This document shows, one piece after another, positions 1 through 27,964 of a stretch of 34,840 nucleotides of DNA; position 1 is the first letter of the stretch; each line of letters starts with the position of its first letter. The notes beneath the pieces were generated by a model. That model did no database searches. It was not told where the DNA came from and was given only the letters and a program-made list of their open reading frames with translations. Origin of the DNA: Rhodospirillaceae bacterium (GTDB taxonomy: Bacteria > Pseudomonadota > Alphaproteobacteria > Rhodospirillales > Rhodospirillaceae); the NCBI GenBank assembly GCA_020852595.1, contig JADZAK010000057.1, positions 1 through 34,840 on the forward strand, written 5' to 3'. The position numbers and the translations under genes were made by a program.

Positions 1-48
1 CAAAAGGCGGATGTCGCCCGCGCCATTGCGATGGTGAAAGGAACATAG
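1..48 (+). CDS. RelE/ParE-type toxin, C-terminal end (partial, cut by window edge)
   Basis: The first 15 codons read QKADVARAIAMVKGT and end at TAG 46-48. This resembles the C-terminal tail of the short RelE/ParE-family toxins of the HI1419 type, in which a Lys-Asp/Ala-rich helix ends the protein. The antitoxin gene starts two bases later, the usual toxin-first order of this TA subtype. Only the tail is visible, so the assignment rests mainly on the neighbour. Confidence 0.6.
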   Translation, partial: QKADVARAIAMVKGT

Positions 49-50
49 TC

Positions 51-407
51 ATGAAGCTCAAGACCAGGAAATACGACGTAGCCAATTACCTCGATAGCGA
101 TGAAATGATCTCGGTCTATCTCGATGCGGCTTTTGAGAGCGGCGATACCTCGCGCATCGCAGAAGCGTTGGGCGATGTAGCCCGCGCGCGCGGTATGACC
201 AAGATCGCCAAAGCGACGGGCCTAGCCCGCGAACAGCTCTATAAGACGCTCAGTGCAGAGGGAAAGCCGGAGCTATCTACTGTGCTCAAAGTTCTGGCCG
301 CATTTGGAGGCGGGCTTAAGTCAAGCTTTCCGCATGCAAGTGCTCGACGCACCCCTCGCCGCGCAAAGGCAGAATCTCATAGTGGAAAGTCGCGCAGGGT
401 GGCGTAA
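51..407 (+). CDS. HI1420-type addiction module antitoxin
   Basis: 118 residues. It matches the putative addiction-module antidote family (HTH proteins found just downstream of a RelE/ParE toxin). It starts with the family-typical YDVANYL-DSDEM segment (about residues 8-19). A helix-turn-helix follows at about residues 46-80 (GMTKIAKATGLAREQLYKTLS, then PELSTVLKVLAAFG). It should bind the toxin and its own operator. The C-terminus after about residue 88 is a basic, low-complexity tail rich in Arg, Lys and Ser; family members usually stop near 95-100 residues, so the end is extended or altered. The start ATG 51 follows AAAGGA and lies two bases after the toxin stop. Confidence 0.8.
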   Translation: MKLKTRKYDVANYLDSDEMISVYLDAAFESGDTSRIAEALGDVARARGMTKIAKATGLAREQLYKTLSAEGKPELSTVLKVLAAFGGGLKSSFPHASARRTPRRAKAESHSGKSRRVA

Positions 408-1983: not shown

Positions 1984-4854
1984 TTACATCCGGAAGCGGA
2001 TGCCCGCGCGGTAAGCGCGGCCGAGCGTATCGTAGAGGTTCGGGGTCGTCGGCTTGCCGGCGTACAACAGGCCGCCGCTGACCGGAACGACCGGCGGCGA
2101 CTTGTCGAACACGTTGTCGACGTTCAGGAACACGGTCGCCTCGGACTCGCCAAAGGCCACCTTATATTGGACGTTGGTGTCGAGGTAGAACGCGCCCTTG
2201 ATCTGGTTGTTGTCGATGGTCGGATGCGTGACGTTCGACCGCGGACAGCCCGTCGTACATTCGATGTAGGCCTTGTCCCACACGCCCGACGACACGCCGC
2301 GGCCGATGAGGGTCACGGACACCGGATCGACGTCGAAGGTCACCGTGCTGGTCCAGCGCCAGCTGGGCAGGCCCGCATTGGAGACGATCGTGTTCTGCCC
2401 CACGCGGTCGATCGGCTCGTTGATGCCGTTCGAGACCAGGTTCTTCAGATAGTGCGTGGCGAGGAAACGCACCGACAGATTGCCGTCGAAGTCGTCGGCG
2501 ATGTCGGACAACGGCATCCGGTAGCTGACGTCGAAGTCGATCCCGCGGTCGATTTCGCTGACGAAGTTGAACGGCTGCGCGAAGACGCGCACGATCGTCA
2601 GCACGCCGTTCACGGGCGCGCGCTCGACGCCCGAGCAGAACACGGTGTTGCCGGCGAAGCAGTTGTCGATGGTCTGCTGGGTGCCGACGGTGCCGATCGC
2701 GTTCTTGATGTTGATGTTGTAGTAGTCGACCGAGGCGCTGAAGCCCGGCACGAACGTCGGCGTCAGCACCACGCCGATCCCGGTGGTGTCGGCTTTTTCC
2801 GGGGTCAGAGCGATGTTACCGGTCGTGACGGTTTCCGCCTGGGCGTTTGGATTGCCCGAGAACGGATCGTTCACGTAGGTCAGGCCGCGGATGCCGGTGG
2901 TGAACAGTTCGGCGAGGTTCGAGGCGCGGATGTCACGCGAACGCGTGAAGCGGAAGCGGATATCGTCGATCGGCGTGTAGGTCAGACCCGCCTTCCAGGT
3001 GGTCACGTAACCCGATGTCGAGTAATCCGTTCCACGGATCGCGGCGTTCAGGTCGAGGGCCTTGGCCCATTCCTGATCCGCGGCCAGCGGGATCACGGTT
3101 TCGGCGAAGGCTTCCTTCACGTTGTACGCGCCGATGGTCGGGCGATAGTTCGCCGCGTACCAGTTGCCGGCAAGGGCATTCGCATCGGCGATGCCGGTGA
3201 CCGATTCCTTGCGGTATTCGGCGCCGACCGCGACCGACACGGGGCCGGCCCAGCTGGAGAACGGCTCGCCGCGCAGCGTGGCCGCCGCGACGTCCTGCTT
3301 GAAGCGCTCGTAGCGGTACGAGGAGCCCCACAGATAGTCTTGAGACGCCTTCGTCGCCACGCCTTCACCGAAGACGTTGAACGGAATACAGGCGCTGCCC
3401 GGGTTCGAGAGCTTCACGCGGCAGACGACGCGGCCCGTGGCCGGATCGAACACGGCGTCGATGGCTTCGCGGTACAGCGGAACCAGCTTGTTGCCCAGCG
3501 AGTACTGCGAGGCGCGCGTGATGCCCTTCTGGTAGTAGAAATCCCAGTTCCAGGTCTTGTCGCCGATATCGAAGTCGCCTTCGGCGCCGACGACATAACG
3601 GTTCACCGTGCGCTCGGTGTAAGCGCCTTCATGCAGGTCGTCGACCCACGAGCCGAAGGTGAACTGCGTCAGGCCGAAACCGAGGGCGCGCTGGCGCACG
3701 CTTTCCGGCAGGTAGGCGTTGTCGACGTTCATGATGAGCGTGTTCAGCTCGCCGCTGACGCCGAAGTAGCTTTCGTGCGTGGTGCGGTCCCACGACAGCT
3801 GCGCATAGACGTTGACGTTGTCGGTGACGTCATAGGACACACGCGTGAACACGTTCTGGTGCGTGTGGCGCGGATCGATCGTGGTCGCCTTGGACACGTC
3901 GGACACGCGCCAGTCGCCGCCCGACATGTACACGCCGCCCACAAGACCGTACGTGAACTGATACGGCGTGCCGCCCGGACCGAAGGCCGTCCCCTTGAGC
4001 GGGCCGGACGTGATGATGCCGCCGTAGGTCGCCGCGGCGGCCGCCACGTTCGGACGCACGATGTACTGCGGCACCGAGGAGTTGGTGGTCGCGTTGTAGG
4101 CCGCATTGGTGAGCACGCCCGTGAGGCCGTTCATCCATTCGCGGTTGTTCGGATCCGAGCTCATGTCGCCCAGGATGCCGACGTTCTTGCTGACTTCGCC
4201 CGAGAACAGGACGTGGCCGCGTCCGCCGCCGAAGGCCATGCCGGCCGCGGTATTGCCCTTCCAGTGCTGGCCGTCGCCGAGATCGGTGATGCCGCCCGAG
4301 ACTTCGCCCTTCACGCCGACGAATTCCTTGTCGAGCACGAAGTTGACGACGCCCGAGAGCGCGTCCGACCCATAAGCCGCCGAAGCGCCGCCGGTGACGA
4401 TGTCCACGCGCGAGATAAGGCCTTGCGGGAAGCCGCCGACGTCGACCTGGTTCTGCTGGGTGGCCGGGACCGAGCGCTGGCCGTCGAGCAGCACGAGGGT
4501 GCGCGCCGTGCCGATGCCGCGCAGGTTCAGCGCGTTGATGCCGCCCGAACCGGAGCTGATGGTGCCGGTGCTGTTGCGGGGCGTGACGCTGCCCATCACG
4601 GACGGCAGCGTGTTGACGAAGTCCGCGACATCGCGCGGCGCGGCCGCTTCAAGGACCTCCGCGCCGACCACCGTCAGAGGCGTGGGCGCTTCGTAGCCGT
4701 CGCGCACGATGCGCGAACCGGTGACCACGATTTCCTCGCCGATCACCGGCGCCTGGGCCGCTTGTTGCGCCAGCGCGGGCTGCGCCATGAAAGCGCCGGC
4801 CGTCAGGGCCAGGAGCGAGGTGGTGGCAAGCGCGCGGCGTTTTGTCGTCTGCAT
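1984..4854 (-). CDS. TonB-dependent receptor without STN domain (regulon 1 receptor A)
   Basis: 956-residue outer-membrane receptor. The Sec signal peptide is about residues 1-29, ending PALA-QQ. A TonB-box-like EEIVVTGSRI follows, then the plug domain (NLRGIGTARTLVLLDGQRS, VDIVTGGASAAYGSDALSG) and a long 22-strand-type barrel ending LGRAYRAGIRFRM. No secretin/TonB N-terminal (STN) domain is present, so on its own it should not signal to a FecR protein. The start ATG 4854 is preceded by GGGGGAAATA; an in-frame upstream start at 4875 would place that ribosome site inside the gene. It is divergent from the ECF sigma gene and closely related to the receptor at 6604-9750. Substrate unknown. Length and the GGASAAYGSDAL plug type fit the large alphaproteobacterial receptors for peptides, glycans or complex organics better than siderophore receptors. 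Confidence 0.92.
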   Translation of the reverse strand: MQTTKRRALATTSLLALTAGAFMAQPALAQQAAQAPVIGEEIVVTGSRIVRDGYEAPTPLTVVGAEVLEAAAPRDVADFVNTLPSVMGSVTPRNSTGTISSGSGGINALNLRGIGTARTLVLLDGQRSVPATQQNQVDVGGFPQGLISRVDIVTGGASAAYGSDALSGVVNFVLDKEFVGVKGEVSGGITDLGDGQHWKGNTAAGMAFGGGRGHVLFSGEVSKNVGILGDMSSDPNNREWMNGLTGVLTNAAYNATTNSSVPQYIVRPNVAAAAATYGGIITSGPLKGTAFGPGGTPYQFTYGLVGGVYMSGGDWRVSDVSKATTIDPRHTHQNVFTRVSYDVTDNVNVYAQLSWDRTTHESYFGVSGELNTLIMNVDNAYLPESVRQRALGFGLTQFTFGSWVDDLHEGAYTERTVNRYVVGAEGDFDIGDKTWNWDFYYQKGITRASQYSLGNKLVPLYREAIDAVFDPATGRVVCRVKLSNPGSACIPFNVFGEGVATKASQDYLWGSSYRYERFKQDVAAATLRGEPFSSWAGPVSVAVGAEYRKESVTGIADANALAGNWYAANYRPTIGAYNVKEAFAETVIPLAADQEWAKALDLNAAIRGTDYSTSGYVTTWKAGLTYTPIDDIRFRFTRSRDIRASNLAELFTTGIRGLTYVNDPFSGNPNAQAETVTTGNIALTPEKADTTGIGVVLTPTFVPGFSASVDYYNINIKNAIGTVGTQQTIDNCFAGNTVFCSGVERAPVNGVLTIVRVFAQPFNFVSEIDRGIDFDVSYRMPLSDIADDFDGNLSVRFLATHYLKNLVSNGINEPIDRVGQNTIVSNAGLPSWRWTSTVTFDVDPVSVTLIGRGVSSGVWDKAYIECTTGCPRSNVTHPTIDNNQIKGAFYLDTNVQYKVAFGESEATVFLNVDNVFDKSPPVVPVSGGLLYAGKPTTPNLYDTLGRAYRAGIRFRM

Positions 4855-4908
4855 TATTTCCCCCAATAGGTACACCAGCCGGAACAGGGAGTACCGGCCC
4901 AGATGGGC

Positions 4909-4941
4909 GTACTACGTAAGGCACCCGATTTTTCCGACAGG
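4909..4941 (-). promoter_or_regulatory. Candidate ECF sigma promoter for receptor A
   Basis: Read on the minus strand this element begins CCTGTCGGAAA and ends TTACGTAGTAC, 33 bases in total, and finishes 54 bases before ATG 4854. The same element, with 28 of 33 bases identical and identical spacing, occurs at 10117-10149 on the plus strand. GGAAA near the 5' side is the type of -35 seen for FecI-like ECF sigma factors. The conserved ACGTA block would be the -10 region. Assignment to the sigma factor at 5043 is inferred from proximity. Confidence 0.6.
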
Positions 4942-5042
4942 TCCCCTTGAAAAACCTCCGGGCCAAAAACCCGCTGGACACCTCTCCCCCCGGTATCTGA
5001 CACTTGAGCCGCCAACGCATTCCGGCCGGGGGGAGACGGTCC

Positions 5043-5582
5043 ATGCCGAGTGATGAGGTCCATGCGACACGATTCGGGCTTCTTTTTTCCAGATATGACC
5101 GCGAGTTACGCCGGTTCCTGAGCGGATACCTCAGGAACAAGAGCGACGTGGACGATTGCGCCCAGGAATCCTTCCTTAATCTGTGGAAACAGGAGACCCG
5201 CGGCGCCCTCCACGAGGACCCGCGCGGCTATCTGTTCATCACGGCGCGCAATGTCGTGCGCGATTTTTTGCGCAAAGGGCGCGCCCGGCGCAGCGAAGCG
5301 CATGTCGAGCTGTCGGAAGAATTGGACGCCGTACGTTATACAGAGGCGGAAACGACACTGATGCACCGGGAGGGCCTGCGCCTGATCGAAGCGCAGCTCG
5401 AGGCGTTACGCCCCTCGACACGCATGGTCTTTCTCCTGCATTACGTGGAGCTTCTGCCGTTCGACGCCATCGCCAAACGCCTGGGAATCTCGACCCGGAC
5501 CGTGGAGCGGGAAATGGCGCGGGCGCTCGACCACTGCCGCGAGGCTCTTGGGCCGACCTGTATGGATATCCTGAGCGATTGA
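5043..5582 (+). CDS. ECF RNA polymerase sigma factor, FecI-like
   Basis: 179 residues with the two domains of extracytoplasmic-function sigma factors. Region 2 is at about 8-80 (FSRYDRELRRFLSGYL, DVDDCAQESFLNLW, DPRGYLFITARNVVRDFLRK). Region 4 is at about 115-165 (LEALRPSTRMVFLLHYVE, then IAKRLGISTRTVEREMARAL as the HTH). It belongs to the FecI-like group, controlled by FecR anti-sigma proteins. The start ATG 5043 follows GGGGGGAGACGGTCC; an in-frame TTG at 5004 is less likely. The fecR-type gene begins one base after its stop. It is divergent from receptor A and probably activates the 4909-4941 promoter. Confidence 0.93.
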   Translation: MPSDEVHATRFGLLFSRYDRELRRFLSGYLRNKSDVDDCAQESFLNLWKQETRGALHEDPRGYLFITARNVVRDFLRKGRARRSEAHVELSEELDAVRYTEAETTLMHREGLRLIEAQLEALRPSTRMVFLLHYVELLPFDAIAKRLGISTRTVEREMARALDHCREALGPTCMDILSD

Positions 5583-5583
5583 T

Positions 5584-6603
5584 ATGATTTTCCGCCGCCC
5601 CCCTCAGACAGCGGCCGCATGGGTCGCCCGGCTGCAGGCCGGTCCCCTTTCCTGGTGGGACCGGCGCGCGCTGGCGCGTTGGCTGGCGGCGTCACCGGAC
5701 CATGCCAAACAATTGGAAGCCGCGCAGGCGGCGAGCGAACTCGCCCAAAAACTGGGCGGCAGCGCCCGGGCGCGCCAGATGCTGGCGCAAGATCTTTGGG
5801 CCCACGCGCGCGCTTCAACCGGCCGCCGCCACGGGTTCGCGCTTCCGTCGCTGGCCACGGCCGCCGTCGCCGCCGTGATCATTGTGATGGCCGTGCCGTG
5901 TAACACACCGTCCTCGCCGCGCATCGGCGACGGCGGATCGGCGCGCACCGCCGTCGGCCAGATCGCGGACTATGCGCTTCCCGACCGCTCGCAGATCACG
6001 GTCGCCGGCGCCTCGGCCGTTTCCATCGCTTTCACTCCAAGCCGCCGCGATGTGGCGCTGGAGCGCGGCGAGGCCTATTTCGACGTCGCGCCGGACCGCG
6101 CGCGCCCTTTCGTGATCACCGCGGGCGCGCACAAGGTGACCGTCACGGGCACCAGCTTTAATGTCAATTACCTCGCGGCCGTGAACGAGATGGAAGTCGC
6201 CGTGGTCGAAGGGACCGTGCGCGTGGCGTATTCGTCGCGCATGAGCACGAACGACGCGGCCGCGGAAATGCATGCGGGCGACGTGATCCTGTTCACGCCG
6301 GAGGGCCCCGTCCTCAAGCGCAATCTGACGCCGCAACAGGTGTCCGCGTGGCGCAGCCGCAAACTCTATTTCGACGGCGCGAACCTCAGCCAGGTTCTGG
6401 CGGAAGTGAACCGCTATTCGGCCAAGCCGCTGGTCACCGAGACGCAGGACATCGACCGCCTGATGCTCACCGGCCAGTTCCCGGCGGGTGACGTTGAATC
6501 CGTGCTGACCTCGCTGCAACAGCTCTATGGCATCGAAGCGCAGGAAAACACGGAGCGCTGGGTCCTCGTGCGGAAACAGGCGAAGACCACGCCGCGCCGT
6601 TAG
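5584..6603 (+). CDS. FecR-type anti-sigma factor/transmembrane signal protein (regulon 1)
   Basis: 339 residues. The cytoplasmic N-terminal domain (about 1-80) contains AAAWVARLQAGPLSWWDRRAL, the DUF4880 type that binds the sigma factor. One membrane segment follows at about 89-105 (LATAAVAAVIIVMAV). The periplasmic FecR domain (about 125-235) includes LERGEAYFDVAPDRARPF and VTVTGTSFNVN. A C-terminal STN-like module (DUF4974 type, about 255-330) contains SRKLYFDGANLSQVLAEVNRYS and PLVTETQDIDRLMLTGQF. The gene starts one base after the sigma stop. It should hold the sigma factor until a ligand-loaded STN receptor signals through the periplasm. Its stop TAG 6601-6603 directly abuts the stop of the convergent receptor B. 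Confidence 0.92.
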   Translation: MIFRRPPQTAAAWVARLQAGPLSWWDRRALARWLAASPDHAKQLEAAQAASELAQKLGGSARARQMLAQDLWAHARASTGRRHGFALPSLATAAVAAVIIVMAVPCNTPSSPRIGDGGSARTAVGQIADYALPDRSQITVAGASAVSIAFTPSRRDVALERGEAYFDVAPDRARPFVITAGAHKVTVTGTSFNVNYLAAVNEMEVAVVEGTVRVAYSSRMSTNDAAAEMHAGDVILFTPEGPVLKRNLTPQQVSAWRSRKLYFDGANLSQVLAEVNRYSAKPLVTETQDIDRLMLTGQFPAGDVESVLTSLQQLYGIEAQENTERWVLVRKQAKTTPRR

Positions 6604-9600
6604 CTACAGCGTGAAGCGCACGCCGGCGCGGAAGATGCGCCCCAGAATGTCGTACAGGATTGGATTGGTCTGGGCGTATCCATAAGGCGTACCGTTGATC
6701 CGCGGCACCGCGGCGGGATCCTTGTTCGCCACATTCTGGATATTGAGGAACAGGCTGGCGCTGTTCCCGAACTTGTAGGCCAGGGATACGTCCACATAAG
6801 CCGCCCCGTCGATGCGGTTCACATTGATCGTCGGATGATCGATGGTCGCGGCGGGGCAGCCCGACGCGCAGGCGATGAAGGCGTTGCCGAGGGTGCCGGC
6901 GCTGACGCCGCGCGCGGTCAGCGCCGCCGTAAGGGCGCCGCCGTCGTAGGCCAGCGAGGCCATCCAGCGCCAGCTCGGCATACCGCTGTCCGACGAGTTC
7001 CCCTCGTTCACACCCGCGATATTCACCGGCGTATTGAGATCGTTGGTGAGGACATTCTTGCGGTTGTGCGTCGCGAGGCCGCGCAAGGTCAGCGATCCCG
7101 TCCAGCCTTCCGAGATCCGCGCGAGCGCAAGACGATAACTGGCTTCGAAGTCCACCCCCTCGACCGTCTGCCGCGCAAGGTTGAGCGGCGTGATGTTGAC
7201 GAGATACTGCTCCTGCCCGTTGCCGTATGTCCGCGTGATGGCGTCGCAGAACAGCCGGTGTCCCCGGTAGCAGAAGTTGACCACGTCCTGGCCCTGCAGC
7301 AGCTGGATCGAATCCTTGATATTGAGCCGCCAGTAATCGACCGACGCATTGAAGCCCGGCAAGACCCGCGGCTGCAGCACGAGGCCTAAACCGGTCGTGT
7401 CCGCCTTTTCGGGTGTAAGGCCCGGATTGCCGTGACTGAAGATGCGGATGAACGCGGTCGGATCGCTGGTGACGAGATTGATGACGTTGTTGGTGCCGCT
7501 GACGCCGCCCGAGAAAAGTTCCAGAAGATTCGGCGCACGGATATCGCGCGAGCGGGTCGCTCGGATTTTCACATCGTCGACGGGCGCGTATGTGAACCCA
7601 AGCTTCCAGGTCGTTACATATCCCGAGGTGCTGTAAGATGTGGCGCGCACCGCCGCATTGACGTCCATGCTGCGCGCGAAGGCTTCATCCTCGGCCAACG
7701 GAACGACGGTTTCGGCAAAGCCTTCGGAAACCGTGTAACCGCCGAACGACGGCATGTAGTTGCCGAGGAACCAGCCGGTCGGGCCGGCGACGCCCCCCAC
7801 CTTTTCACTGCGGTGCTCCGCTCCGAACGCAAAAGAAATGGGCCCCGCCCAGTTCCGCACCGGTGCGCCGTGCACGGAAAAAGCCTGTACGTTCTGCTCG
7901 TAACGCTCGGTGCGCCAATCGGTCCCGGTGATGTAGTTCAACGCCGCCTGTGAATTCACGCCAAGGCCGAACAAGTTATAGGGCACACATCCATTGCCCG
8001 GATCGGTCAGCGCCGCGCGGCAGACGATCGCCCCGCGCGCATCCCTGACGGCGTCGCTCGCCATCGCGAAATTCGCCGTATGAATGACGCGCTGAAGCTT
8101 GGACGTGTGGTGCGTGACGCCGTTCTGGAGATAGGCGTCCCACGTCCAGGGCGCATCCATCAGATCGAAAACACCGTGGGCGCCGAGCACCGTGCGGGTC
8201 GTGCGCCGGTCCCCGAGGACTTCCGGCGATCTGTTTTCGAGGTCGCCATTGATCGTCCCGAAGCCGAACGAGGTCACGCCCAAAGCCGCCGCGCGCGCGG
8301 CGACGGAGGCCGGGATGAAGGCGTTATCCGCGGCGACGGTAAGATTGCCCGAATAAAGGGGCAGAAGGGCGATGGAATAGGAATCGGCATGCCCCCAGCC
8401 GTGTTGCACGAAGATATTCACGTCGTCGGTGAGATCGTAGCCGAGACGCGCGAACAGGTTCTGGCGCGAGGAGCGCGTGCCGAGGCTCTGTGTCGCATGC
8501 ACATTGAGCGAGGAGGCCTGGCTCGAACCGTACATATTCGAACCGTCGGTGAGCAGGCCGTAGTCGAATTGGTAAGGCGTGCCGCCCGGGCCGAACGCAA
8601 TGCCCTTGAGCGGCCCGGATGTGATCAGCCCGCCGGGCGCGGCGCGCGAATTGTTCACGGGATCGAGGATGAGAAGCTGCGGTTCGCCATTGGTTGGCGT
8701 GTAGTTCGGATTGGCGAGCTGTCCGATGTTCGAGCGGTTCCACGCCCGGTTCGACGGATGCACGACGCCGCCGTTGTGCTCGACCTCGCCGCTGAGAAGC
8801 GCATGCAGGCGGCCGTTCGCGAACTCATGCCCCGCGGTCATGGCGATCTTGAATCCGGCGTTGTCGCCGTACGTCGTCATGCCGCCCGAGACTTCGCCTT
8901 TGACGCCGGTGAAGGTCTTGTCGAGGACGAAATTCACGACGCCCGCCAAGGCATCGGAGCCGTAGGCCGCCGACGCGCCGCCGGTGACCACGTCGACGCG
9001 GGATACGAGCTGCTGCGGGAATGTATTCACGTCCGCCGCGCCGGTGATCGTGCCCGCGACCGAACGCTGGCCGTCGAGCAGCACCAGCGTGCGCTGAATG
9101 CCGAGATCGCGCAGACTCAAGCCGTTCGTTCCGGCGACGCCCGAGGCCGTCTGGATGTTCTGGTTCGGAGTCTGGCTGCCCGCGAAGGCCGGCAAGGCGT
9201 TGACGAGATCGGCGAGATTGCCGGTGGCCTGGCGCGCGATCTGATCGGCGCCCAGCACCGTGACAGGGGTCGGCGCCGCGTAGCCGCCGCGCGCGATACG
9301 CATGCCGGGCACGAGGATCTCCTCGACCACGTCGGACATGGCGAGTTGCGGCGCCGGCGGCGGCGGGGCCCGGCGCGCTTCGCGAACTTCCGGAACAGGG
9401 ACCGGCGTTTCCGGCGCCGTGATCACGAAGACCGCGCCACGATTGTTGATGACTTGAAGACCGCTGCCGTCCAGCAGGCGGCGGATGGCGTCCTCGGCGG
9501 TGAACGATCCGCTGAGACCTTTTGTGCGCAAGCCTTTCACCTGGTCGGGCGCGAACACCAGATTGATCCCGGTGTCCCGTTGCAGGCGCTTGAGTCCGTC

Positions 9601-9750
9601 CTCGATGCTCATCGCGCCGATCTTCACGGCATAGCGCGGCCCGGCGGCCTGCGCGGCGGCAGGGCGCGGGACCGTACCGGCCGCGAGCGCGGTCAGCGAC
9701 AGCAATACGGCCGCGGCGGCATGCTTGGTGCGAGGAGGGAAACGACGCAT
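6604..9750 (-). CDS. TonB-dependent transducer receptor with STN domain (regulon 1 receptor B)
   Basis: 1048 residues. The signal peptide is about 1-33. The STN domain (about 38-105: YAVKIGAMSIEDGLKRLQRD, ITGINLVFAPDQVKGLRTKG-like strand, then AEDAIRRLLDGSGL) is the module that contacts FecR. A Pro/Ala linker leads to a TonB box (VVEEILVPGMRI), plug and barrel ending LGRIFRAGVRFTL. The plug and barrel closely match receptor A (RTLVLLDGQRSV, VTGGASAAYGSDAL, LKGIAFGPGGTPYQF), so the two are paralogues that differ mainly in the STN domain. ATG 9750 gives a compact signal peptide; the frame is open up to 9924 but that extension looks non-coding. No strong ribosome site is seen. It most likely signals to the FecR at 5584-6603. 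Confidence 0.9.
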   Translation of the reverse strand: MRRFPPRTKHAAAAVLLSLTALAAGTVPRPAAAQAAGPRYAVKIGAMSIEDGLKRLQRDTGINLVFAPDQVKGLRTKGLSGSFTAEDAIRRLLDGSGLQVINNRGAVFVITAPETPVPVPEVREARRAPPPPAPQLAMSDVVEEILVPGMRIARGGYAAPTPVTVLGADQIARQATGNLADLVNALPAFAGSQTPNQNIQTASGVAGTNGLSLRDLGIQRTLVLLDGQRSVAGTITGAADVNTFPQQLVSRVDVVTGGASAAYGSDALAGVVNFVLDKTFTGVKGEVSGGMTTYGDNAGFKIAMTAGHEFANGRLHALLSGEVEHNGGVVHPSNRAWNRSNIGQLANPNYTPTNGEPQLLILDPVNNSRAAPGGLITSGPLKGIAFGPGGTPYQFDYGLLTDGSNMYGSSQASSLNVHATQSLGTRSSRQNLFARLGYDLTDDVNIFVQHGWGHADSYSIALLPLYSGNLTVAADNAFIPASVAARAAALGVTSFGFGTINGDLENRSPEVLGDRRTTRTVLGAHGVFDLMDAPWTWDAYLQNGVTHHTSKLQRVIHTANFAMASDAVRDARGAIVCRAALTDPGNGCVPYNLFGLGVNSQAALNYITGTDWRTERYEQNVQAFSVHGAPVRNWAGPISFAFGAEHRSEKVGGVAGPTGWFLGNYMPSFGGYTVSEGFAETVVPLAEDEAFARSMDVNAAVRATSYSTSGYVTTWKLGFTYAPVDDVKIRATRSRDIRAPNLLELFSGGVSGTNNVINLVTSDPTAFIRIFSHGNPGLTPEKADTTGLGLVLQPRVLPGFNASVDYWRLNIKDSIQLLQGQDVVNFCYRGHRLFCDAITRTYGNGQEQYLVNITPLNLARQTVEGVDFEASYRLALARISEGWTGSLTLRGLATHNRKNVLTNDLNTPVNIAGVNEGNSSDSGMPSWRWMASLAYDGGALTAALTARGVSAGTLGNAFIACASGCPAATIDHPTINVNRIDGAAYVDVSLAYKFGNSASLFLNIQNVANKDPAAVPRINGTPYGYAQTNPILYDILGRIFRAGVRFTL

Positions 9751-10116
9751 CGCGCTACGAGGAGAACCTTGCGCGCGCGAGTTATACGGGAGACGAAACC
9801 GCGGGTGCGTCGGGCCGCATCGGGCCGGCGGTGCTGGTGCGCATGGTGTGCTCCCCTTTGTGGTGACCGCGACGCTGCGTCGTCCACACGATTGCCGGAC
9901 ATCGGACCGGAAAACCGCGCTCACGCGGTCCGGCGTCGACCCTCCCTGCGAAAATCGGCGCGGCGGCTTTCGTGCGGGGCTTACGCGTATCGTCTAAGCC
10001 GCCGCGAGTATCACAAATATCGGCGAGTCCCCTCAACAGCAATTCAGCCGAAGCCGGCGCAACTGTTACATCCGCCGCACCGCAAAATTCAGGATGATGC
10101 GAATTTCACATTCGGC
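9751..10116. other. Intergenic region upstream of receptor B with mutually exclusive hairpins
   Basis: No gene is seen. Structures: ACCGCG (9914-9919) with CGCGGT (9924-9929), extended by CCGG at 9907-9910 and 9930-9933; a perfect 11-bp inverted repeat, CGCGGCGGCTT (9959-9969) with AAGCCGCCGCG (9996-10006); and an alternative stem, GGCTTA (9978-9983) with TAAGCC (9995-10000), which would compete for the same right arm. GCGAATTTC (10099-10107) and GAAATTTCGC (10124-10133) form an imperfect inverted repeat overlapping the next promoter. The 33-bp ECF element does not recur here on the minus strand. Confidence 0.5.
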
Positions 10117-10149
10117 CCTGTCGGAAATTTCGCGTCCGTTACGTAGTAC
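10117..10149 (+). promoter_or_regulatory. Candidate ECF sigma promoter for the structured leader and amidase
   Basis: This second copy of the 33-base element begins CCTGTCGGAAA and ends TTACGTAGTAC. It differs from the copy at 4909-4941 at five internal positions only, with no change in spacing. It points right, towards a hairpin-rich stretch (10155-10326) and the amidase ATG at 10378. The likely sigma factor is the one at 5043-5582, by inference. Confidence 0.6.
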
Positions 10150-10154
10150 CCTCT

Positions 10155-10330
10155 ACCCTTCTTGGGTTTCAGGGGATTGGCCTCGGTCTCGGCCGCCTGA
10201 TGTCACGGACGGGGATTTGCGAGTGGGAGACTGCCTGGGGCGCACCCCGGAAGTTTCCCGGCTATCGTCTGGTTCCCCCCAACGATAGTCTTGGGCCGGC
10301 CGCGGCACTTCCCTGCGCGGCCGGCCTCCT
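10155..10330 (+). ncRNA. Structured leader or small RNA ahead of the amidase gene
   Basis: At least five hairpins follow each other directly downstream of the promoter element. They are ACCC/GGGT (10155-10158, 10164-10167); GGCC/GGCC (10179-10182, 10191-10194); a long one with GGGAGACT (10225-10232) and AGTTTCCC (10252-10259) capped by GGGG-CGCA-CCCC (10237-10248); CTATCGT/ACGATAG (10262-10268, 10282-10288); and a perfect 11-bp stem, GGCCGGCCGCG (10294-10304) with CGCGGCCGGCC (10316-10326), followed by TCCTTT. The last could be a weak intrinsic terminator, which would make 10155-10330 a discrete sRNA. Otherwise it is a roughly 220-base 5' UTR of the amidase. I do not recognise it as a known riboswitch, SRP RNA or RNase P. 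A 6S-like RNA cannot be excluded. Confidence 0.5.
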
Positions 10331-10377
10331 TTCACCATCCAAAGCTTCACTTGAAGATTTCACTTGGAGATCACGTC

Positions 10378-12051
10378 ATGACGACCCTTGCTCGTTTCAC
10401 GCCGGCCCGCCCCAAGTTCATCGGTGTGGGCGCCATGGTCATCGCAGGCGTCATGGCTTTTGCGCCGCCCGTCATGGCCGAGACTCTCGATCTCACCAGC
10501 GCGACCATCGCCGACGTGCAGGCCGCGCTGGGCACACGCAAGCTGTCGTCGGAAAAGCTGACGCAAGCCTACCTCGCGCGCATCAAGGCCTACGACAAGC
10601 AGGGCCCGGCGATCAACGCGGTCATCCTGGTGAACCCGAACGCCGTCAAAGAAGCCCGCGCCATGGACCGCGAGCGCCGCGCCGGCAAGGTGCGCGGGCC
10701 GCTGCACGGCATCCCCGTCATCGTGAAGGACAACTACAACACCGTCGACATGCCGACGACCGCGGGCTCGCAACTGCTGGCGGGTTCGATCCCGCCGACG
10801 GACGCCTACGTGGTGAAGAAGCTGCGGGACGCGGGCGCGATCATCATTGCCAAGGTAAATCTGAATGAATTCGCCGGCAGCGGCGGCATGACCAACGGCG
10901 AGAAAGACGCGAAGATCGCCGCCATGGGCCGTGCGCAGGCGGGCTTCAGCTCGCAGGGTGGGCAGACACGCAATCCGCACGACATCGCGCGCGTCCCGTC
11001 CAGCTCCAGCGGCGGCACCGGCGCGTCGGTCGCGGCCGCGTTCGGACAATTCGGCCTCGGCACCGACACGGGCGGCTCGGTGCGCGGCCCCTCGTCGGTC
11101 AACGGCATCGTCGGCCTCAAGACCAGCTATGGCCTGGTGAGCCGCGCCGGCATCGTGCCGCTGTCCTTGAGCCTCGATACCTCGGGCCCGATGGCGCGCC
11201 GCGTCTATGACGTGGCCGCGGCCCTCAACGTGATGGTCGGTGTCGATCCGGACGATTCAACGACACAGATGTCGGTCGGCAAAGCCGAAACCGATTACAC
11301 CAAATTCGCGAAGCCGGGCGGGCTCAAAGGCGCGCGCATCGGGATCGGCCGCGATTTCCTGGGCGGTGACGATCAGGTGGACAAGATTACCGAAGACGCG
11401 ATCGCGACGTTGAAGTCGCTCGGCGCGGAGATCGTCGATCCGATCAAGGTGCCCAACTACCTGCTCGACCAGCGCAGCGGCGTCTACGCCCTGCTGGTCA
11501 ACACCGAGTTCAAAGCCCAGATCACGGACTACCTTCAAACCCTGAAGCCGGGTTTCCCGAAGAGCTTCGACGAGATCGTGGCGCTGGCAAACGATCCCGC
11601 GACGAACTACCGCAGCCCGGAGAAGGCCTTCGGATTGAAATACTCGCAAGCGCATGCCGTCGGGATCGATACACCGACCTATCTTGCGCTCAAGAACCGG
11701 ACCCTGCCCGCCATTCGCGCCGGCGTGGAGGCCGTGTTCACGTCCTACAAGATCGACGCCATCCTGGCGCCGACCAATTCGGCGCCGGCGCAGCTGATCG
11801 CGGAGCCGCGGCGCGGCGGCGGCGGACGCGGCGATTCGCCGGGCAACCTGACCAATGAATCCTGGGTGCCGGAGATGGTGGTGCCCGCGGGCATGACCGG
11901 CGAAGGCCTGCCGGTGACGATCTCGTTCATCGGCATGCCGTTCAGCGACGCCAAGCTGATCGGCTACGCCTATGACTTCGAACAGGCGACAAAAGCCCGG
12001 CGCCTGCCGAAGCACACCCCTGAACTGAAGACCGATAAGATCGATTACTAG
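10378..12051 (+). CDS. Exported amidase (amidase signature family)
   Basis: 557 residues. A Sec signal peptide ends at about residue 34 (PPVMA-ETL), so the enzyme acts in the periplasm or outside. The amidase-signature Ser-cisSer-Lys triad is complete: K117 in PVIVKDNYNT, the cis-Ser in PSSSSGGTGAS (about 210-211), and the nucleophile S234 in GTDTGGSVRGPSS. It should hydrolyse a C-N amide bond; the substrate cannot be read from the sequence. A Gly/Arg-rich loop (RRGGGGRGDSPG, about 480) is an insertion. ATG 10378 has GGAG eight bases upstream. The gene lies downstream of the structured leader and the ECF-type promoter, which suggests it processes a compound taken up by the regulon 1 receptors. 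Its stop overlaps the stop of the convergent FAD protein. Confidence 0.92.
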   Translation: MTTLARFTPARPKFIGVGAMVIAGVMAFAPPVMAETLDLTSATIADVQAALGTRKLSSEKLTQAYLARIKAYDKQGPAINAVILVNPNAVKEARAMDRERRAGKVRGPLHGIPVIVKDNYNTVDMPTTAGSQLLAGSIPPTDAYVVKKLRDAGAIIIAKVNLNEFAGSGGMTNGEKDAKIAAMGRAQAGFSSQGGQTRNPHDIARVPSSSSGGTGASVAAAFGQFGLGTDTGGSVRGPSSVNGIVGLKTSYGLVSRAGIVPLSLSLDTSGPMARRVYDVAAALNVMVGVDPDDSTTQMSVGKAETDYTKFAKPGGLKGARIGIGRDFLGGDDQVDKITEDAIATLKSLGAEIVDPIKVPNYLLDQRSGVYALLVNTEFKAQITDYLQTLKPGFPKSFDEIVALANDPATNYRSPEKAFGLKYSQAHAVGIDTPTYLALKNRTLPAIRAGVEAVFTSYKIDAILAPTNSAPAQLIAEPRRGGGGRGDSPGNLTNESWVPEMVVPAGMTGEGLPVTISFIGMPFSDAKLIGYAYDFEQATKARRLPKHTPELKTDKIDY

Positions 12052-13388
12052 GATTTCAACAACGTCTCGGCCATCTGCGCGCAGGCGCGACGGATATCCG
12101 GAACGGATGTGATCTCCCAGAAGGCGCCGCGCGTCGGAGGGCCTACGGCGAAGATATTCGGCGAGACGACGCCTTTGGCGTCGATGACGGCGCAATCGTC
12201 GCTGACGTCCAGTCCGAGCTGAAGCGGATCGGGGCGGATGGCGCCGGCTTCGACCGCGGTGCGCACCAAGGGATTCGTGGTCTGGGAATAGTCGCCTTGC
12301 GGTCCCGTGCAGTTCACGATCCACGATGACGCCAGATGTCGGAGGCCCTCCTCGCCGCGCGGACGGACCATTATGCCGAACGCGCCATCCTTCCAGTCTA
12401 TGGACACGATGCGGCCGGCCGCGACCGTCAGCTGCCCGGACTCGCGCACCGACGTCAGCGTATCGGCAATCGCCGGCGCCACGCGGTGACGATGCACCTC
12501 CCACAGCGGGCGGACATGCCGCAGGAACCGACGCCGCTCCGCGGATGAGAGACGGCGCCAGGTCTCGATCGTCCACGGCCTGAATGCGTCGACGACGTCG
12601 CGCCAGTCATGACCGGTTGACGGAGCCGCCTGCGCCGCCCGGCGAAAGTCGCGAAACAGCGCACGCAGGCCGCTCGTCGGCCGTTCCATCGTCATCGGCT
12701 TCGCCGTCTCGTGACGGTTGGGCACGTAGCCGTGGCGGGATATGACGTTGATCTTTCCGCTGTGTTTGCGGCTTACAAGGCTCTGCACCACGTCGGCCAT
12801 GGTGAGACCGCTGCCGACGATCAGGACGTCGCCGTGCGCCGGAATGGCGTCGAGCCCTCGCGCCTTCCATGCATCATGCAGATAACGCGCGGAATTTCGC
12901 GCCGCGTCGGTCAAGCCCGGCGGCGGCCCCGGCGGCAAATTGCCGAAACACAAGGCGATACGGTCGAAGACGAGACGCCGTCCGTCCTCAAGACCGACGG
13001 CCGGCTGCGCCCCGGGATGAAGCGCGCGCGCCACGCCGGTGACAAGAGACACGGGCACTCTTCCCGCCTGCTCCGCCACGGCCGCGCGCAGCACATGGCC
13101 GACATATTCGCCGTAACGCATCCGCGACATGAAGGCCGACGCCGGCGACGGATCGCCGCTCGCGCTCAGCCACGCGTGGAAGTTCCGCACGTCGTCGGGA
13201 AAGGCGCCCATGTTTCCGGCGCGCACATTCAAGAGGTGCTCCGGGTTCACCGTCCCGTAGGCCGCGCCGCGGCCGAGGGCATCGCCGCTCTCGATGATCG
13301 TGATCGCCGTGCCCACGGGCGCCCGGCGCAGAAGTTGGACCGCAAGCAGGCACCCGCTAAACCCGCCGCCGATAATTCCGATATGCAT
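12048..13388 (-). CDS. FAD/NAD(P)-binding protein (NAD_binding_9 type)
   Basis: 446 residues. The N-terminus MHIGIIGGGFSGCLLAVQLL is a dinucleotide-binding GxGxxG fold for FAD. A second Rossmann motif appears near residue 175 (DVLIVGSGLTMADVVQSL) for NAD(P). NCTGP near the C-terminus and FAVGPPTRGAFWEITSVPDIR complete the fold. Proteins of this type are related to flavin monooxygenases and to hydroxyacyl/FAD-dependent oxidoreductases of unknown substrate; lysine/ornithine N-hydroxylases share the overall plan. The start at 13388 puts the GxGxxG motif at its usual place. The frame upstream to 14027 is open only as the shadow of other genes. The stop codon CTAG (12048-12051) is shared with the convergent amidase. 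Confidence 0.85.
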   Translation of the reverse strand: MHIGIIGGGFSGCLLAVQLLRRAPVGTAITIIESGDALGRGAAYGTVNPEHLLNVRAGNMGAFPDDVRNFHAWLSASGDPSPASAFMSRMRYGEYVGHVLRAAVAEQAGRVPVSLVTGVARALHPGAQPAVGLEDGRRLVFDRIALCFGNLPPGPPPGLTDAARNSARYLHDAWKARGLDAIPAHGDVLIVGSGLTMADVVQSLVSRKHSGKINVISRHGYVPNRHETAKPMTMERPTSGLRALFRDFRRAAQAAPSTGHDWRDVVDAFRPWTIETWRRLSSAERRRFLRHVRPLWEVHRHRVAPAIADTLTSVRESGQLTVAAGRIVSIDWKDGAFGIMVRPRGEEGLRHLASSWIVNCTGPQGDYSQTTNPLVRTAVEAGAIRPDPLQLGLDVSDDCAVIDAKGVVSPNIFAVGPPTRGAFWEITSVPDIRRACAQMAETLLKS

Positions 13389-13466
13389 GCCCCAGGGATA
13401 AAGCCCAAACCCGGCGGCGTCCAGCGAGGCCTTTCCCGCGAAAGCGCCCATGGGTAAATTCGCGCC

Positions 13467-13931
13467 ATGACCCTTGACTCCGTCCGCGCCGACCTGGCGC
13501 ACCGCGCCCCCGATCTTGAGATCATCGAATCGCACCTCAGCACCGCGACCGTTGCGCTGGCGGCCATCGCCCACGGGGTGGAGCCGGGACAAATCGCCAA
13601 AACGCTGTCGCTGAAAATCGCGGACCGGCGCTTCCTGCTGGTCGCGCGCGGCGACTACCGTCTCGACAACAAAAAAGCCAAGGCCGCCTTCGGGGCCAAG
13701 CCGAGCATGCTGTCGCATGATGAGGTCGTGGCGATCACCGGCCATCCGGTCGGCGGGGTCTGCCCCTTCGGCCTCGCACAGCCTTTGCAAATCTATTGCG
13801 ACATTTCGCTGAAAAGCTTCGGCGAGGTTTGGCCGGCGGCGGGGTCCGTCAACAGTTCGATCCGCATCACGCCGCAGCGGCTGGCGGACCTTGTGGGCGC
13901 GACGTGGGTCGACGCCTGTAACGCGCCCTGA
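13467..13931 (+). CDS. YbaK/EbsC-family aminoacyl-tRNA deacylase
   Basis: 154 residues, full length for the stand-alone YbaK/ProX editing domain, which hydrolyses mischarged tRNA such as Cys- or Ala-tRNA(Pro). Family features are the lysine in GQIAKTLSLKI (about residue 45), LLVARGDYRLDNKKAK, and the GGVCPFGL turn (about 95-102) that lines the active site. It ends with the usual SSIRITPQRLADLVGATWVD. It is divergent from the FAD protein across 78 bases. Specificity (Pro, Cys or Ala) cannot be read. Confidence 0.9.
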   Translation: MTLDSVRADLAHRAPDLEIIESHLSTATVALAAIAHGVEPGQIAKTLSLKIADRRFLLVARGDYRLDNKKAKAAFGAKPSMLSHDEVVAITGHPVGGVCPFGLAQPLQIYCDISLKSFGEVWPAAGSVNSSIRITPQRLADLVGATWVDACNAP

Positions 13932-13995
13932 ATCTCCTCGCTTCGACTCGAACCCTGTCGTAACGTCCTTGCCTGTGGGCCGTGAGGGGGAACGC

Positions 13996-15210
13996 ATGAC
14001 GACAGCGCCGGGTGAACCGCTTCTCAATCTTATGTCGCCGGATGTGCTCCGGAATCCCTACCCCTCCTTCGACCGCCTGCGCGCCGCCGAGCCCGTGCAC
14101 CGGCTGCCGCTCGGCTTCGTCGTGCTGAGCCGTTACGACGATGTCAGCCTGGTCCTGAAAGACAAACGTTTCGGAAAAACCTTCGCCGAACGCATGACCC
14201 TTCGGAATGGGCCCGCCATCATGGACGAGCCGGTGTTCCGCAGCATGAGCAAGTGGATGATGTGGGTGAATCCGCCCGATCATACGCGGCTGCGCGGCCT
14301 CGTGACCAAGGCCTTCGTCTCCCGGCGCATGGAAGACATGCGCCCGCGCATCCAGGCCCAGGTCGACGCGATCATCGACAAGATGGAGAAGAAGGACGGC
14401 GGCGACCTGATCGCCGATTTCGCCTTCGCGCTTCCCGTGGGTGTGATCTGCGACATGCTGGGGATCCCGCAGGAAGACGTGCCGATGTTCATCGGCGCCG
14501 TCGCCAACGCCGCGAAACTGCTCGACCCCGTGATGCTGAGCCGCGCCGAGATCGACGAGGCCAACGGCCACTTCCAGAACATGGCCGACTATTTCGCGCG
14601 CCTGTTCGAACAGCGCCGCCGCGCGCCGGGCGGCGATCTGACCTCGCACCTTCTGGCCGCCGAGGAAGCCGGCGACAAGCTGTCGATGGAAGAACTGACC
14701 GCCAACATGATCCAGCTTTTCAGCGCGGGTCACGAGACAAGCATCAACCTCATCGGCAACGGGCTTCTCGCGCTCGCGCGGCATCCGGACCAGTTGGAGC
14801 TCCTGCGCAAGACCCCTTCCCTCACCGAGAACGCGGTGGAAGAAATGCTGCGTTACGATTCCCCCGTGCAGGCGGCGGGGCGCGATGCGATGGAGGACGT
14901 GGAGGTCGGCGGCGTCAAGCTGGCCAAAGGTGAAGCCCTCGTCTGCCTGCTGGGCGCGGCCAACCGCGATCCCGCGGTTTTCCCGGATCCGCATAAACTC
15001 GACATCACGCGCGCCAATACCAAACATGTGTCCTTCGGCGGAGGCAGCCATTTCTGCATCGGCGCGCAGCTTGCGCGCATCGAGGCGCAGGTGGCTTTCG
15101 AGACCCTGCTGCGGCGTTTGCCGAATCTGAAAATTCAAAACACCGACGCCCCGGACTGGCGTATGATGTTCGTCATTCGCGGCATGAATGTCCTGCCCGC
15201 GGCCTGGTAA
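13996..15210 (+). CDS. Cytochrome P450
   Basis: 404 residues, soluble bacterial class I length. The I-helix oxygen-binding motif is AGHETS (244-249). The K-helix ExxR is E283-x-x-R286 in EEMLRYDSPV. The haem loop is FGGGSHFCIGAQLAR with the ligand C354. C-helix WVNPPDHTRLRGLV contains the HxxxR that holds haem propionates. The start ATG 13996 follows GAGGGGGAACGC. No ferredoxin or ferredoxin reductase gene is adjacent, so electrons must come from a partner encoded elsewhere. Substrate unknown. A conserved-looking small gene follows 15 bases downstream. Confidence 0.95.
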   Translation: MTTAPGEPLLNLMSPDVLRNPYPSFDRLRAAEPVHRLPLGFVVLSRYDDVSLVLKDKRFGKTFAERMTLRNGPAIMDEPVFRSMSKWMMWVNPPDHTRLRGLVTKAFVSRRMEDMRPRIQAQVDAIIDKMEKKDGGDLIADFAFALPVGVICDMLGIPQEDVPMFIGAVANAAKLLDPVMLSRAEIDEANGHFQNMADYFARLFEQRRRAPGGDLTSHLLAAEEAGDKLSMEELTANMIQLFSAGHETSINLIGNGLLALARHPDQLELLRKTPSLTENAVEEMLRYDSPVQAAGRDAMEDVEVGGVKLAKGEALVCLLGAANRDPAVFPDPHKLDITRANTKHVSFGGGSHFCIGAQLARIEAQVAFETLLRRLPNLKIQNTDAPDWRMMFVIRGMNVLPAAW

Positions 15211-26379: not shown

Positions 26380-26922
26380 GTGACCGAGGCTGTCCTCGGC
26401 GTTCTGATGACGGAGTATCTCGCCATGCGCGAGGTGCTCTTGCGCTTCCTGGCGGCCCGGTTGGGCGACGCGGCGGCGGCGGACGACATTTATCAGGAGC
26501 TGTTCGTGCGCCTGAAGAGCGGCGTCCTGCCCGCCGATCTCACCAATCCGCGCGGATACCTGTTCCGGATGGCCTACAATCTCGCCAACGAATTCGCGCG
26601 CGCGCGCCGCCGTCGGGACGCGCGCGATGCGCACTGGACGGAAACAACGACACATAAGGTCGGAACCGATACGATCGCCGACGCCACGGCGGCCGACGAG
26701 GCGCTCGCGTCGAAAGAAAGATTAACGGTTGTCATGAAGGCCCTGGACAGCCTGCCGGCCAAGAGCCGGGAGGTGTTCGTGATGTGCCGGGTTCAGGGGC
26801 TAAGTCACCGGGATATCGCCGAAGTGATGGGCATTTCGACCAAGACAGTGGAAAAACACATGACTGCGGCCTTGAAACACCTCACTTTATTTCTGCGGTC
26901 CACAGAGGGGGAGCGGCATTAG
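26380..26922 (+). CDS. ECF RNA polymerase sigma factor, FecI-like (regulon 2)
   Basis: 180 residues from GTG 26380. Region 2 is LAMREVLLRFLAARLGD, AAADDIYQELFVRL and NPRGYLFRMAYNLANEFARA. Region 4 is LDSLPAKSREVFVMCRVQGL, then HRDIAEVMGISTKTVEKHMT as the HTH. It belongs to the FecR-controlled FecI-like group. An ATG at 26407 is the alternative start and removes nine residues; neither site has a strong ribosome sequence. The FecR-type gene follows after 39 bases, in the same frame as this gene and separated from it by TAG 26920-26922. Confidence 0.9.
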   Translation: MTEAVLGVLMTEYLAMREVLLRFLAARLGDAAAADDIYQELFVRLKSGVLPADLTNPRGYLFRMAYNLANEFARARRRRDARDAHWTETTTHKVGTDTIADATAADEALASKERLTVVMKALDSLPAKSREVFVMCRVQGLSHRDIAEVMGISTKTVEKHMTAALKHLTLFLRSTEGERH

Positions 26923-26961
26923 CCGCGGCATCTGCAAGATGAGTACCTTAAAAGGTGGATT

Positions 26962-27939
26962 TTGAGCATTCCCGCAACCACAGCCGGTGAAACCGAGCGC
27001 CTTCAAACGGCGGCCGCCTGGCATGCGCGCCTGGAAACGGGCGCCGACGCGTGGGAAGCCTTCACACTCTGGCTCGAAGCCGACCCGCGCAACCGCACGG
27101 CTTTTGACGCCGTGGACGCCGCGGCGCGCGAAGCGGTGGACCTGCTGTCGGTGAACCGTGAATTGACGGTCCTGGCGCCGCCCCCGGCCGCGCGCCGCTT
27201 CTCGACGCGCGCGTTCCTCGGCATCGGCGGGATCGCGGCGGCGGTCCTTCTGACCATCGTGGCGCGCCCCGACATCTTCCAGCCGGACGAACACGAGATT
27301 GTCGCGACCGTGGCCGGCGAGCGGCGTGACGTCACGCTCTCCGACGGTTCGACCGTCCATCTCAACACCAATACCCAAGTCGCGGTGACCATGAGCCGCG
27401 GCACGCGCAATGTGCGCCTCGAAAAAGGCGAAGCGCTGTTCGAAGTCGCGCGCGATCCCGCGCGTCCCTTCCATGTGGCGGCGGGCGACCGCGACGTGCG
27501 CGTCGTGGGAACGGCCTTCAACGTGCTGCGCCATGACGGCCGCATCACCGTCACCGTCGAACGCGGCATCGTGGACGTCACGTCCGACGGCGCGCGGACC
27601 AACGTGCGCCTTGGCGCGGGCGACCAATACGCCGCCCGGGAAGGGACACGCGCCTACCAGGTCGCCAAGATCGATCCGACCATCGCCGCGGCGTGGCGCG
27701 ACGGCCGGGCCGTCTTCATCGATGCGACTCTATCGGAGGTTGCTTCGGACCTTTCCCGCTACTATGGGAGGCCGATCGTGGTCCGTGACGCCGACGTCGC
27801 GGCCATGCGCTTTTCCGGGATTCTCAAGATCGAGGACCAACTGACCACGGTCAAACGCCTCGAGGCCCTCCTCCCCATTGTTGTTGCCGAAAATGGGGAT
27901 GAAGTAAGATTGGAACGGGAAGCCCCGCCCTCCAAATAA
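26962..27939 (+). CDS. FecR-type anti-sigma factor (regulon 2)
   Basis: 325 residues from TTG 26962. The DUF4880-type N-terminus is AAAWHARLETGADAWEAFTL. A membrane helix lies at about 88-103 (FLGIGGIAAAVLLTIV). The FecR domain is at about 115-225 (VTLSDGSTVHLNTNTQ, VRLEKGEALFEVARDPARPF, VRVVGTAFNV). The DUF4974-like C-terminal module is VFIDATLSEVASDLSRYYG and IVVRDADVAAMRFSGILK. No ATG or GTG is available near the natural N-terminus. TTG follows AAAGGTGGA by two bases and overlaps the stop of a tiny frame, MSTLKGGF (26939-26965). It should regulate the sigma factor upstream in response to the receptor downstream. Confidence 0.9.
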   Translation: MSIPATTAGETERLQTAAAWHARLETGADAWEAFTLWLEADPRNRTAFDAVDAAAREAVDLLSVNRELTVLAPPPAARRFSTRAFLGIGGIAAAVLLTIVARPDIFQPDEHEIVATVAGERRDVTLSDGSTVHLNTNTQVAVTMSRGTRNVRLEKGEALFEVARDPARPFHVAAGDRDVRVVGTAFNVLRHDGRITVTVERGIVDVTSDGARTNVRLGAGDQYAAREGTRAYQVAKIDPTIAAAWRDGRAVFIDATLSEVASDLSRYYGRPIVVRDADVAAMRFSGILKIEDQLTTVKRLEALLPIVVAENGDEVRLEREAPPSK

Positions 27940-27964
27940 TCCGGGGCGCGCAACGCGAGGGGGA

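Follow-up and report, generated by a model that had tools for sequence, protein, structure and literature searches.

The window, by which we mean the whole 34,840-nucleotide stretch of DNA analysed here, contains a locus of five genes. An ECF sigma factor of the FecI type (5043–5582, plus strand; Pfam sigma regions 2 and 4) is followed by a FecR-type sigma regulator, or anti-sigma factor (5584–6603, plus strand; Pfam FecR and DUF4880). On either side lie TonB-dependent receptor genes on the minus strand. Receptor A (1984–4854) matches the Pfam plug and barrel domains and has no STN domain, while receptor B (6604–9750, with the start chosen from the frame) has an STN signalling domain together with plug and barrel. 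The fifth gene encodes an exported amidase of the amidase-signature family (10378–12051, plus strand; Pfam Amidase PF01425, 307.7 bits), whose signal peptide was judged by eye. The sigma factor falls below the cut-off of the NCBIfam FecI equivalog NF041727 (75.6 bits versus 260). Three features of FecI-type surface signalling are found at the locus: an ECF sigma factor with regions 2 and 4 only, an adjacent FecR, and a nearby TonB receptor with an STN domain. A fourth, a promoter element in front of the gene of the signalling receptor, is absent. Another set of ECF sigma factor, FecR and STN-type TonB receptor is found in the window at 26401–30406.

The nearest relative of the amidase with a solved structure is the peptide amidase of PDB 1m21 (317.5 bits, aligned over 42–546), which we take to be from Stenotrophomonas. 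The score against NCBIfam PRK08137 is below its cut-off (434.9 bits versus 534). A reasonable guess, and no more, is that the enzyme acts on amidated peptides; an amide substrate common to receptor A and the amidase is a suggestion that comes from the enzyme family. The gene beside the amidase (NAD_binding_9 type, window 12048–14027) appears split into several frames in the related genome G002 (L044, 10034–12015), and an antitoxin-like gene (dnstrm_HI1420 family) is located at the contig edge (window 3–407).

The shared element and its distribution

Two copies of a 33-bp element are present in the window, one upstream of receptor A (4909–4941, minus strand) and one upstream of the amidase (10117–10149, plus strand), both supported by pairwise match and by pattern scans of the window and genome. 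They are identical at 28 of 33 positions, with merely scattered matches beyond the element, and both have the core TGTCGGAAA-N14-CGTAGTA. Both are intergenic. The first is directed at the start of receptor A at 4854, at a distance of 54 nt, and the second at the start of the amidase at 10378, with a leader of 228 nt (10150–10377). Our recount thus agrees with the 28 shared bases of an earlier, sequence-only reading, as does the placement that it described, in non-coding DNA, on opposite strands and each facing a gene. That reading linked the amidase to receptors in the plural; receptor A indeed carries the element, but receptor B, the receptor with the STN domain, has none before its gene either in the scan of the window or in the loci of relatives.

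The leader contains two inverted repeats seen by eye (about 10262–10288 and 10294–10326), which make it a possible attenuator. Its sequence is common to the window, G002 and G006, and is absent in G008 and G005. The window has no Rfam match at the gathering threshold, and no sigma-70-type promoter was found in 4700–10600.

With the pattern CCTGTCGGAAA-N11-TTACGTAGTAC and up to three mismatches, the window gives two sites, compared to none in 100 dinucleotide shuffles. The earlier reading had proposed a genome-wide search as a check, and across 3.85 Mb in 259 contigs the pattern TGTCGGAAA-N{11,15}-CGTAGTA has three exact matches, all with a gap of 14, while the reversed control has none. The third match, on contig C60 (6147–6179, minus strand), lies shortly upstream of a second exported amidase that is 53% identical to that of the window, so that all three exact sites precede receptor A or an exported amidase. 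The 28/33 match, the three genome sites versus none and the two window sites versus none in shuffles rule out a chance repeat as the source of the element.

Looser matching loses this specificity. When up to three mismatches to the core are allowed, the genome has 15 sites and the control 18, which is background; only near-exact matches therefore carry weight on their own. A shorter version of the pattern, also at three mismatches, is likewise at background in the window (7 sites versus 10.8 expected). The 15 looser sites comprise the three exact ones, two inside sigma genes (contig C200 and window 5311), one upstream of a receptor-amidase set on contig C170, and nine with no homologue of the 15 reference proteins nearby. 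The C170 site is a weak lead, and is absent from the output of the motif model described below, for which 150 first-look candidates were scored per genome.

The exact pattern is present in three of the 41 genomes searched (the window genome, G002 and G008). Matches to the sigma factor at E<1e-20 occur in 6 of 19 genomes of the genus, with close orthologues (74–94% identity) in G002, G006 and G008. All four genomes with a close sigma orthologue (74–100%, the window genome included) have the element before both receptor A and the orthologous amidase, with 0–3 mismatches. Compared to the 16-base core, the receptor A element has no mismatch in the window, G002 and G008 and one in G006; the amidase element has none in the window and G008, one in G002 and three in G006. 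Receptor A and the amidase are on separate contigs in G008, and the amidase there is oriented divergently from the orthologue of receptor B. The bases TGTCGG-N17-CGTAGTA are invariant in all nine elements considered (the eight receptor A and amidase elements of the four genomes, plus C60), while the bases between them vary. Sigma matches were also seen on public MAG contigs labelled Candidatus Marinimicrobia (L020 and L022, at 87 and 56%), while another, L021, is labelled Rhodospirillaceae; these labels disagree.

A sequence-only motif model built from the nine elements was run over the 19 genomes. It returned 12 matches at E<0.05, each located upstream of either receptor A or an amidase: the nine used to build it and three held out, which precede the second amidase in G006 (C34) and G008 (C72) and an orthologous amidase of G005 (C82). 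The C82 element has two mismatches, and its amidase is divergent from a receptor-B relative. Of nine weaker matches (E 0.13 to 3.4), one is the internal site within the G008 sigma gene and eight have no reference homologue nearby. Over the window and 14 further loci (about 219 kb), a scan with up to three mismatches gives 18 sites, namely nine promoters of the set, eight internal sigma-gene sites and the C170 site.

The element is lacking at two of the seven amidase orthologues with at least 65% identity. One of them (G005, contig C51) has a COQ7-like gene in its vicinity, and neither a receptor nor a sigma gene lies between the two. The other (G004, contig C139) has an adjacent receptor, upstream of which is a four-mismatch site that was left out of the counts. 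Neither G005 nor G004 has a sigma match, and these genomes are 71 and 79% complete. The second amidase has the element in all three copies with upstream DNA (the window genome, G006 and G008), the G002 copy ending at a contig edge. The amidase family itself is expanded, with 24 matches to the window amidase at E<1e-60 in the window genome (itself included), 29 in G002 and 24 in G008. Several of these paralogues are in tandem and some are beside TonB receptors; some of the 24 are perhaps fragments. An exact element occurs at only two of the 24 in the window genome, which indicates that the set is selective.

Position, specificity and conservation together lend good support both to the ECF-type promoter proposed by the sequence-only reading and to the link that it drew between receptor and amidase. 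Judged from the DNA, the set is wider than first read: it takes in the second exported amidase, which is encoded outside the window, and probably the anti-sigma gene as well, by way of a site located within the sigma gene.

The sigma factor that would read the element

Most likely, the element is an ECF promoter and the FecI-type sigma factor at 5043–5582 is its reader, a control that we infer from neighbourhood and co-occurrence. Matches at E<0.05 are confined to the four genomes with close sigma orthologues and to the incomplete G005. A profile search of 297 genomes of the order found nine members with at least 280 bits, the next match scoring 95, a gap that arises partly because the profile was built from those nine.

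A related system in the window genome appears to use its own form of the promoter. For the core TGTCGG-N17-CGTA, 15 sites were counted across the genome compared to three in the control, and four of the 15 are on the 19-kb contig C23 (L051: 6750, 9710, 10160 and 15603), which carries a paralogous sigma system. One of these sites is in the sigma gene and one precedes a receptor whose BLAST alignment to receptor B extends through the STN region; another is located 37 nt upstream of an exported beta-lactamase-type protein, and the remaining one precedes a secreted-repeat protein. The C23 sites have the form TGTCGG[A/G]T...TGCGTA. In the window set the prevailing form is TGTCGGAAA...ACGTAGTA, with exceptions in G002 and G006, which have GAA or GCT, and at receptor A of G008, which has GCGTAGTA. 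In all, eight of the 15 core sites belong to the window system or paralogous systems. Two of the other seven are within receptor-A-like frames (C90 and C195) and five have no reference homologue nearby.

That another ECF sigma factor reads the element, or another regulator binds it, is in our view improbable. The genome has eight FecR-domain matches, so that other sigma factors could read it, and in a table of mapped ECF promoters from Sinorhizobium meliloti the rows of RpoE10, an unrelated sigma factor of the ECF42 type, read TGTCGG-N17-CGTC in three of three cases (PMC6180224; the N17 spacing was counted from the table in the present analysis). The identical −35 block and spacing indicate that the geometry of the element is that of an ECF promoter. 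Against a different reader, the matches at E<0.05 follow the close sigma orthologues as described above, and the C23 paralogue is accompanied by a corresponding variant at the genes of its own system. In addition, DUF6596, which presumably marks the ECF42 group, has no match in the window genome, G006 or G008, and is above the cut-off in three of the 19 genomes (G002, G007 and G014), so this domain does not follow the element.

A copy of the element inside the sigma gene

A weaker copy of the element, with three mismatches, is located within the sigma gene (5311–5340, plus strand) and faces fecR, making it a candidate internal promoter with codon-level conservation in nine homologues. Internal matches occur at one homologous place on the sense strand of the sigma genes, with 1–3 mismatches in eight of the nine members of this clade and four in C23. 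At the protein level, identity to the window sigma factor ranges from 46 to 94%. In the C23 sigma gene the internal site takes the C23 form, and the one in the window sigma gene (GGAAG...TACGT) is nearer to the window form. Three paralogous systems (C200, G002:C117 and G015) combine an internal site with the lack of any core match before the receptor; no promoter was identified in G003.

Conservation at this site extends to codon choice. Of 60 columns in which a degenerate amino acid is kept in at least eight of the nine sequences, only two use a single codon throughout, namely TCG within TGTCGG and CGT within the −10 block. Both codons are present in nine of nine genes, CGT accounting for 12.6% of the arginine codons in 14 window genes, and rare codons (TTA, GTA, AGT and AGA) are found beside CGT in several members. 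We compared the sites with codon shuffles that preserve each protein and its codon usage. The best mismatches summed over the nine genes amount to 23, versus 54.2 ± 3.1 in 300 shuffles (minimum 45), a figure that is not a clean probability, since the nine genes are related and two pairs closely so. Gene by gene, the observed value was attained by none of 300 shuffles in the case of the window, G008, C200, G015 and G003, by 0.3% for G002, 0.7% for G002:C117, 3.7% for G006 and 6% for C23.

More distant relatives differ. The internal site was not seen in 22 more distant FecI loci, except for one three-mismatch match (L064) that falls on the non-sense strand of the gene and beyond the aligned region, and 0 of 22 conserved columns in this distant set of 22 loci are codon-invariant.

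The match might instead have been kept for reasons of protein or mRNA, rather than as a promoter, which we consider unlikely. The residues at the site, Ser91 and Arg98, are invariant in the nine proteins, so the amino acids alone account for part of the match, and the nine genes are related. However, the codons are fixed as well, TCG and the infrequent CGT alike, and shuffles that keep the proteins fail to reach the observed sum. The 22 more distant FecI proteins, moreover, do not have these serine and arginine residues.

The internal site thus fits a promoter for the anti-sigma gene alone, acting as feedback. On balance, we favour the view that a clade of FecI-type sigma genes carries a promoter in the coding sequence of its own interdomain linker, which the encoded sigma factor would itself read and which would serve only the anti-sigma gene. 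The DNA site would have frozen linker codons and even amino acids, and in the window and C23 would follow the promoter variant of each system. It may act as a brake on an apparently non-iron uptake system that divides sensing and uptake between two sister receptors and couples them to exported amidases.

A proposed circuit and its known counterparts

The best explanation of the data as a whole, to which we assign a probability of about 0.78, is that the element is the −35/−10 pair for the sigma factor at 5043–5582, that receptor B would signal through FecR to this sigma factor, which would direct receptor A and the exported amidases, and that the internal copy would damp the response through the mRNA of the regulator. 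Receptor B would sense an extracellular substrate by way of its STN domain and signal through the FecR-type regulator, which may free or activate the sigma factor. The sigma factor would then turn on receptor A, for uptake, and the exported amidases of the window and elsewhere, for processing. Transcription from the internal promoter would supply further mRNA for fecR (start 5584) but none for the sigma factor, and so serve as a brake. With the STN domain in receptor B and the element only at receptor A, sensing and induced uptake appear to be split. The system is apparently not for iron. Several points count against the circuit. The eight FecR-domain matches leave room for other sigma factors, receptor B, the expected target in a Fec system, has no element, two of seven amidase orthologues lack it, and three paralogous systems have the internal site with no core match at their receptors. 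As to the internal site, that of the window has three mismatches, single-gene shuffles reach the observed value in 6% (C23) and 3.7% (G006) of cases, and its serine and arginine are invariant in the protein too.

The promoters could also be coordinated while receptor A and the amidases handle different substrates, a possibility that we regard as somewhat doubtful. The 24 amidase matches in the genome are in its favour; receptors and amidases nevertheless cluster in the window genome and its relatives, and contig C170 has a receptor followed by two amidase genes.

If the proposed circuit is correct, it defines a testable regulon in a lineage with many exported amidases and places an uptake receptor and processing enzymes under the control of a single surface signal. 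It also suggests a way for a FecI-type circuit to carry negative feedback without an intergenic promoter, in which a DNA signal would constrain the protein sequence that carries it. An ECF regulon is in itself of an already known type; the new part is the internal, codon-constrained copy in the sigma gene. Our search of open-licence papers found no internal promoter in a fecI-type gene, and the "intragenic promoter" reported in Caulobacter, in the section concerned, refers to sigV inside cabp (PMC13171946).

The locus resembles the E. coli FecI-FecR-FecA system, as outlined in the relevant part of PMC9249621, in having an ECF sigma factor, a FecR-type regulator, a signalling TonB receptor and an ECF promoter before a receptor gene. 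Unlike in E. coli, where the same account names the signalling receptor FecA itself as the target, it is a receptor without STN domain and exported amidases that carry the element here. Transcription of fecIR is also described there as not autoregulated (PMC9249621), whereas the internal site suggests feedback through fecR. The hemI gene of Stenotrophomonas is likewise reported as not autoregulated, and both cases speak against the generality of such feedback.

In Sinorhizobium meliloti, the promoters of RpoE10 (ECF42) share TGTCGG-N17-CGT with the element (PMC6180224) but differ in that the −10 block continues as CGTC and not CGTAGTA. RpoE10 belongs to another sigma group with a C-terminal repeat domain and has no TonB system. 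For the FecI-FecR system of the same organism, putative start sites were placed upstream of fecR and of the receptor gene, and the authors, in their treatment of these sites, found no motif there (PMC6180224). A precedent for an internal anti-sigma promoter is found in Corynebacterium glutamicum, where a promoter that depends on SigH and lies inside the sigH reading frame transcribes the anti-sigma gene rshA alone, and where the authors suggest, in the passage on this promoter, that it serves to shut down the response (PMC3489674). SigH is an actinobacterial stress sigma factor without FecR or TonB receptor, but the arrangement is the one that we propose for the FecI-type clade, with an internal promoter directed at the anti-sigma gene.
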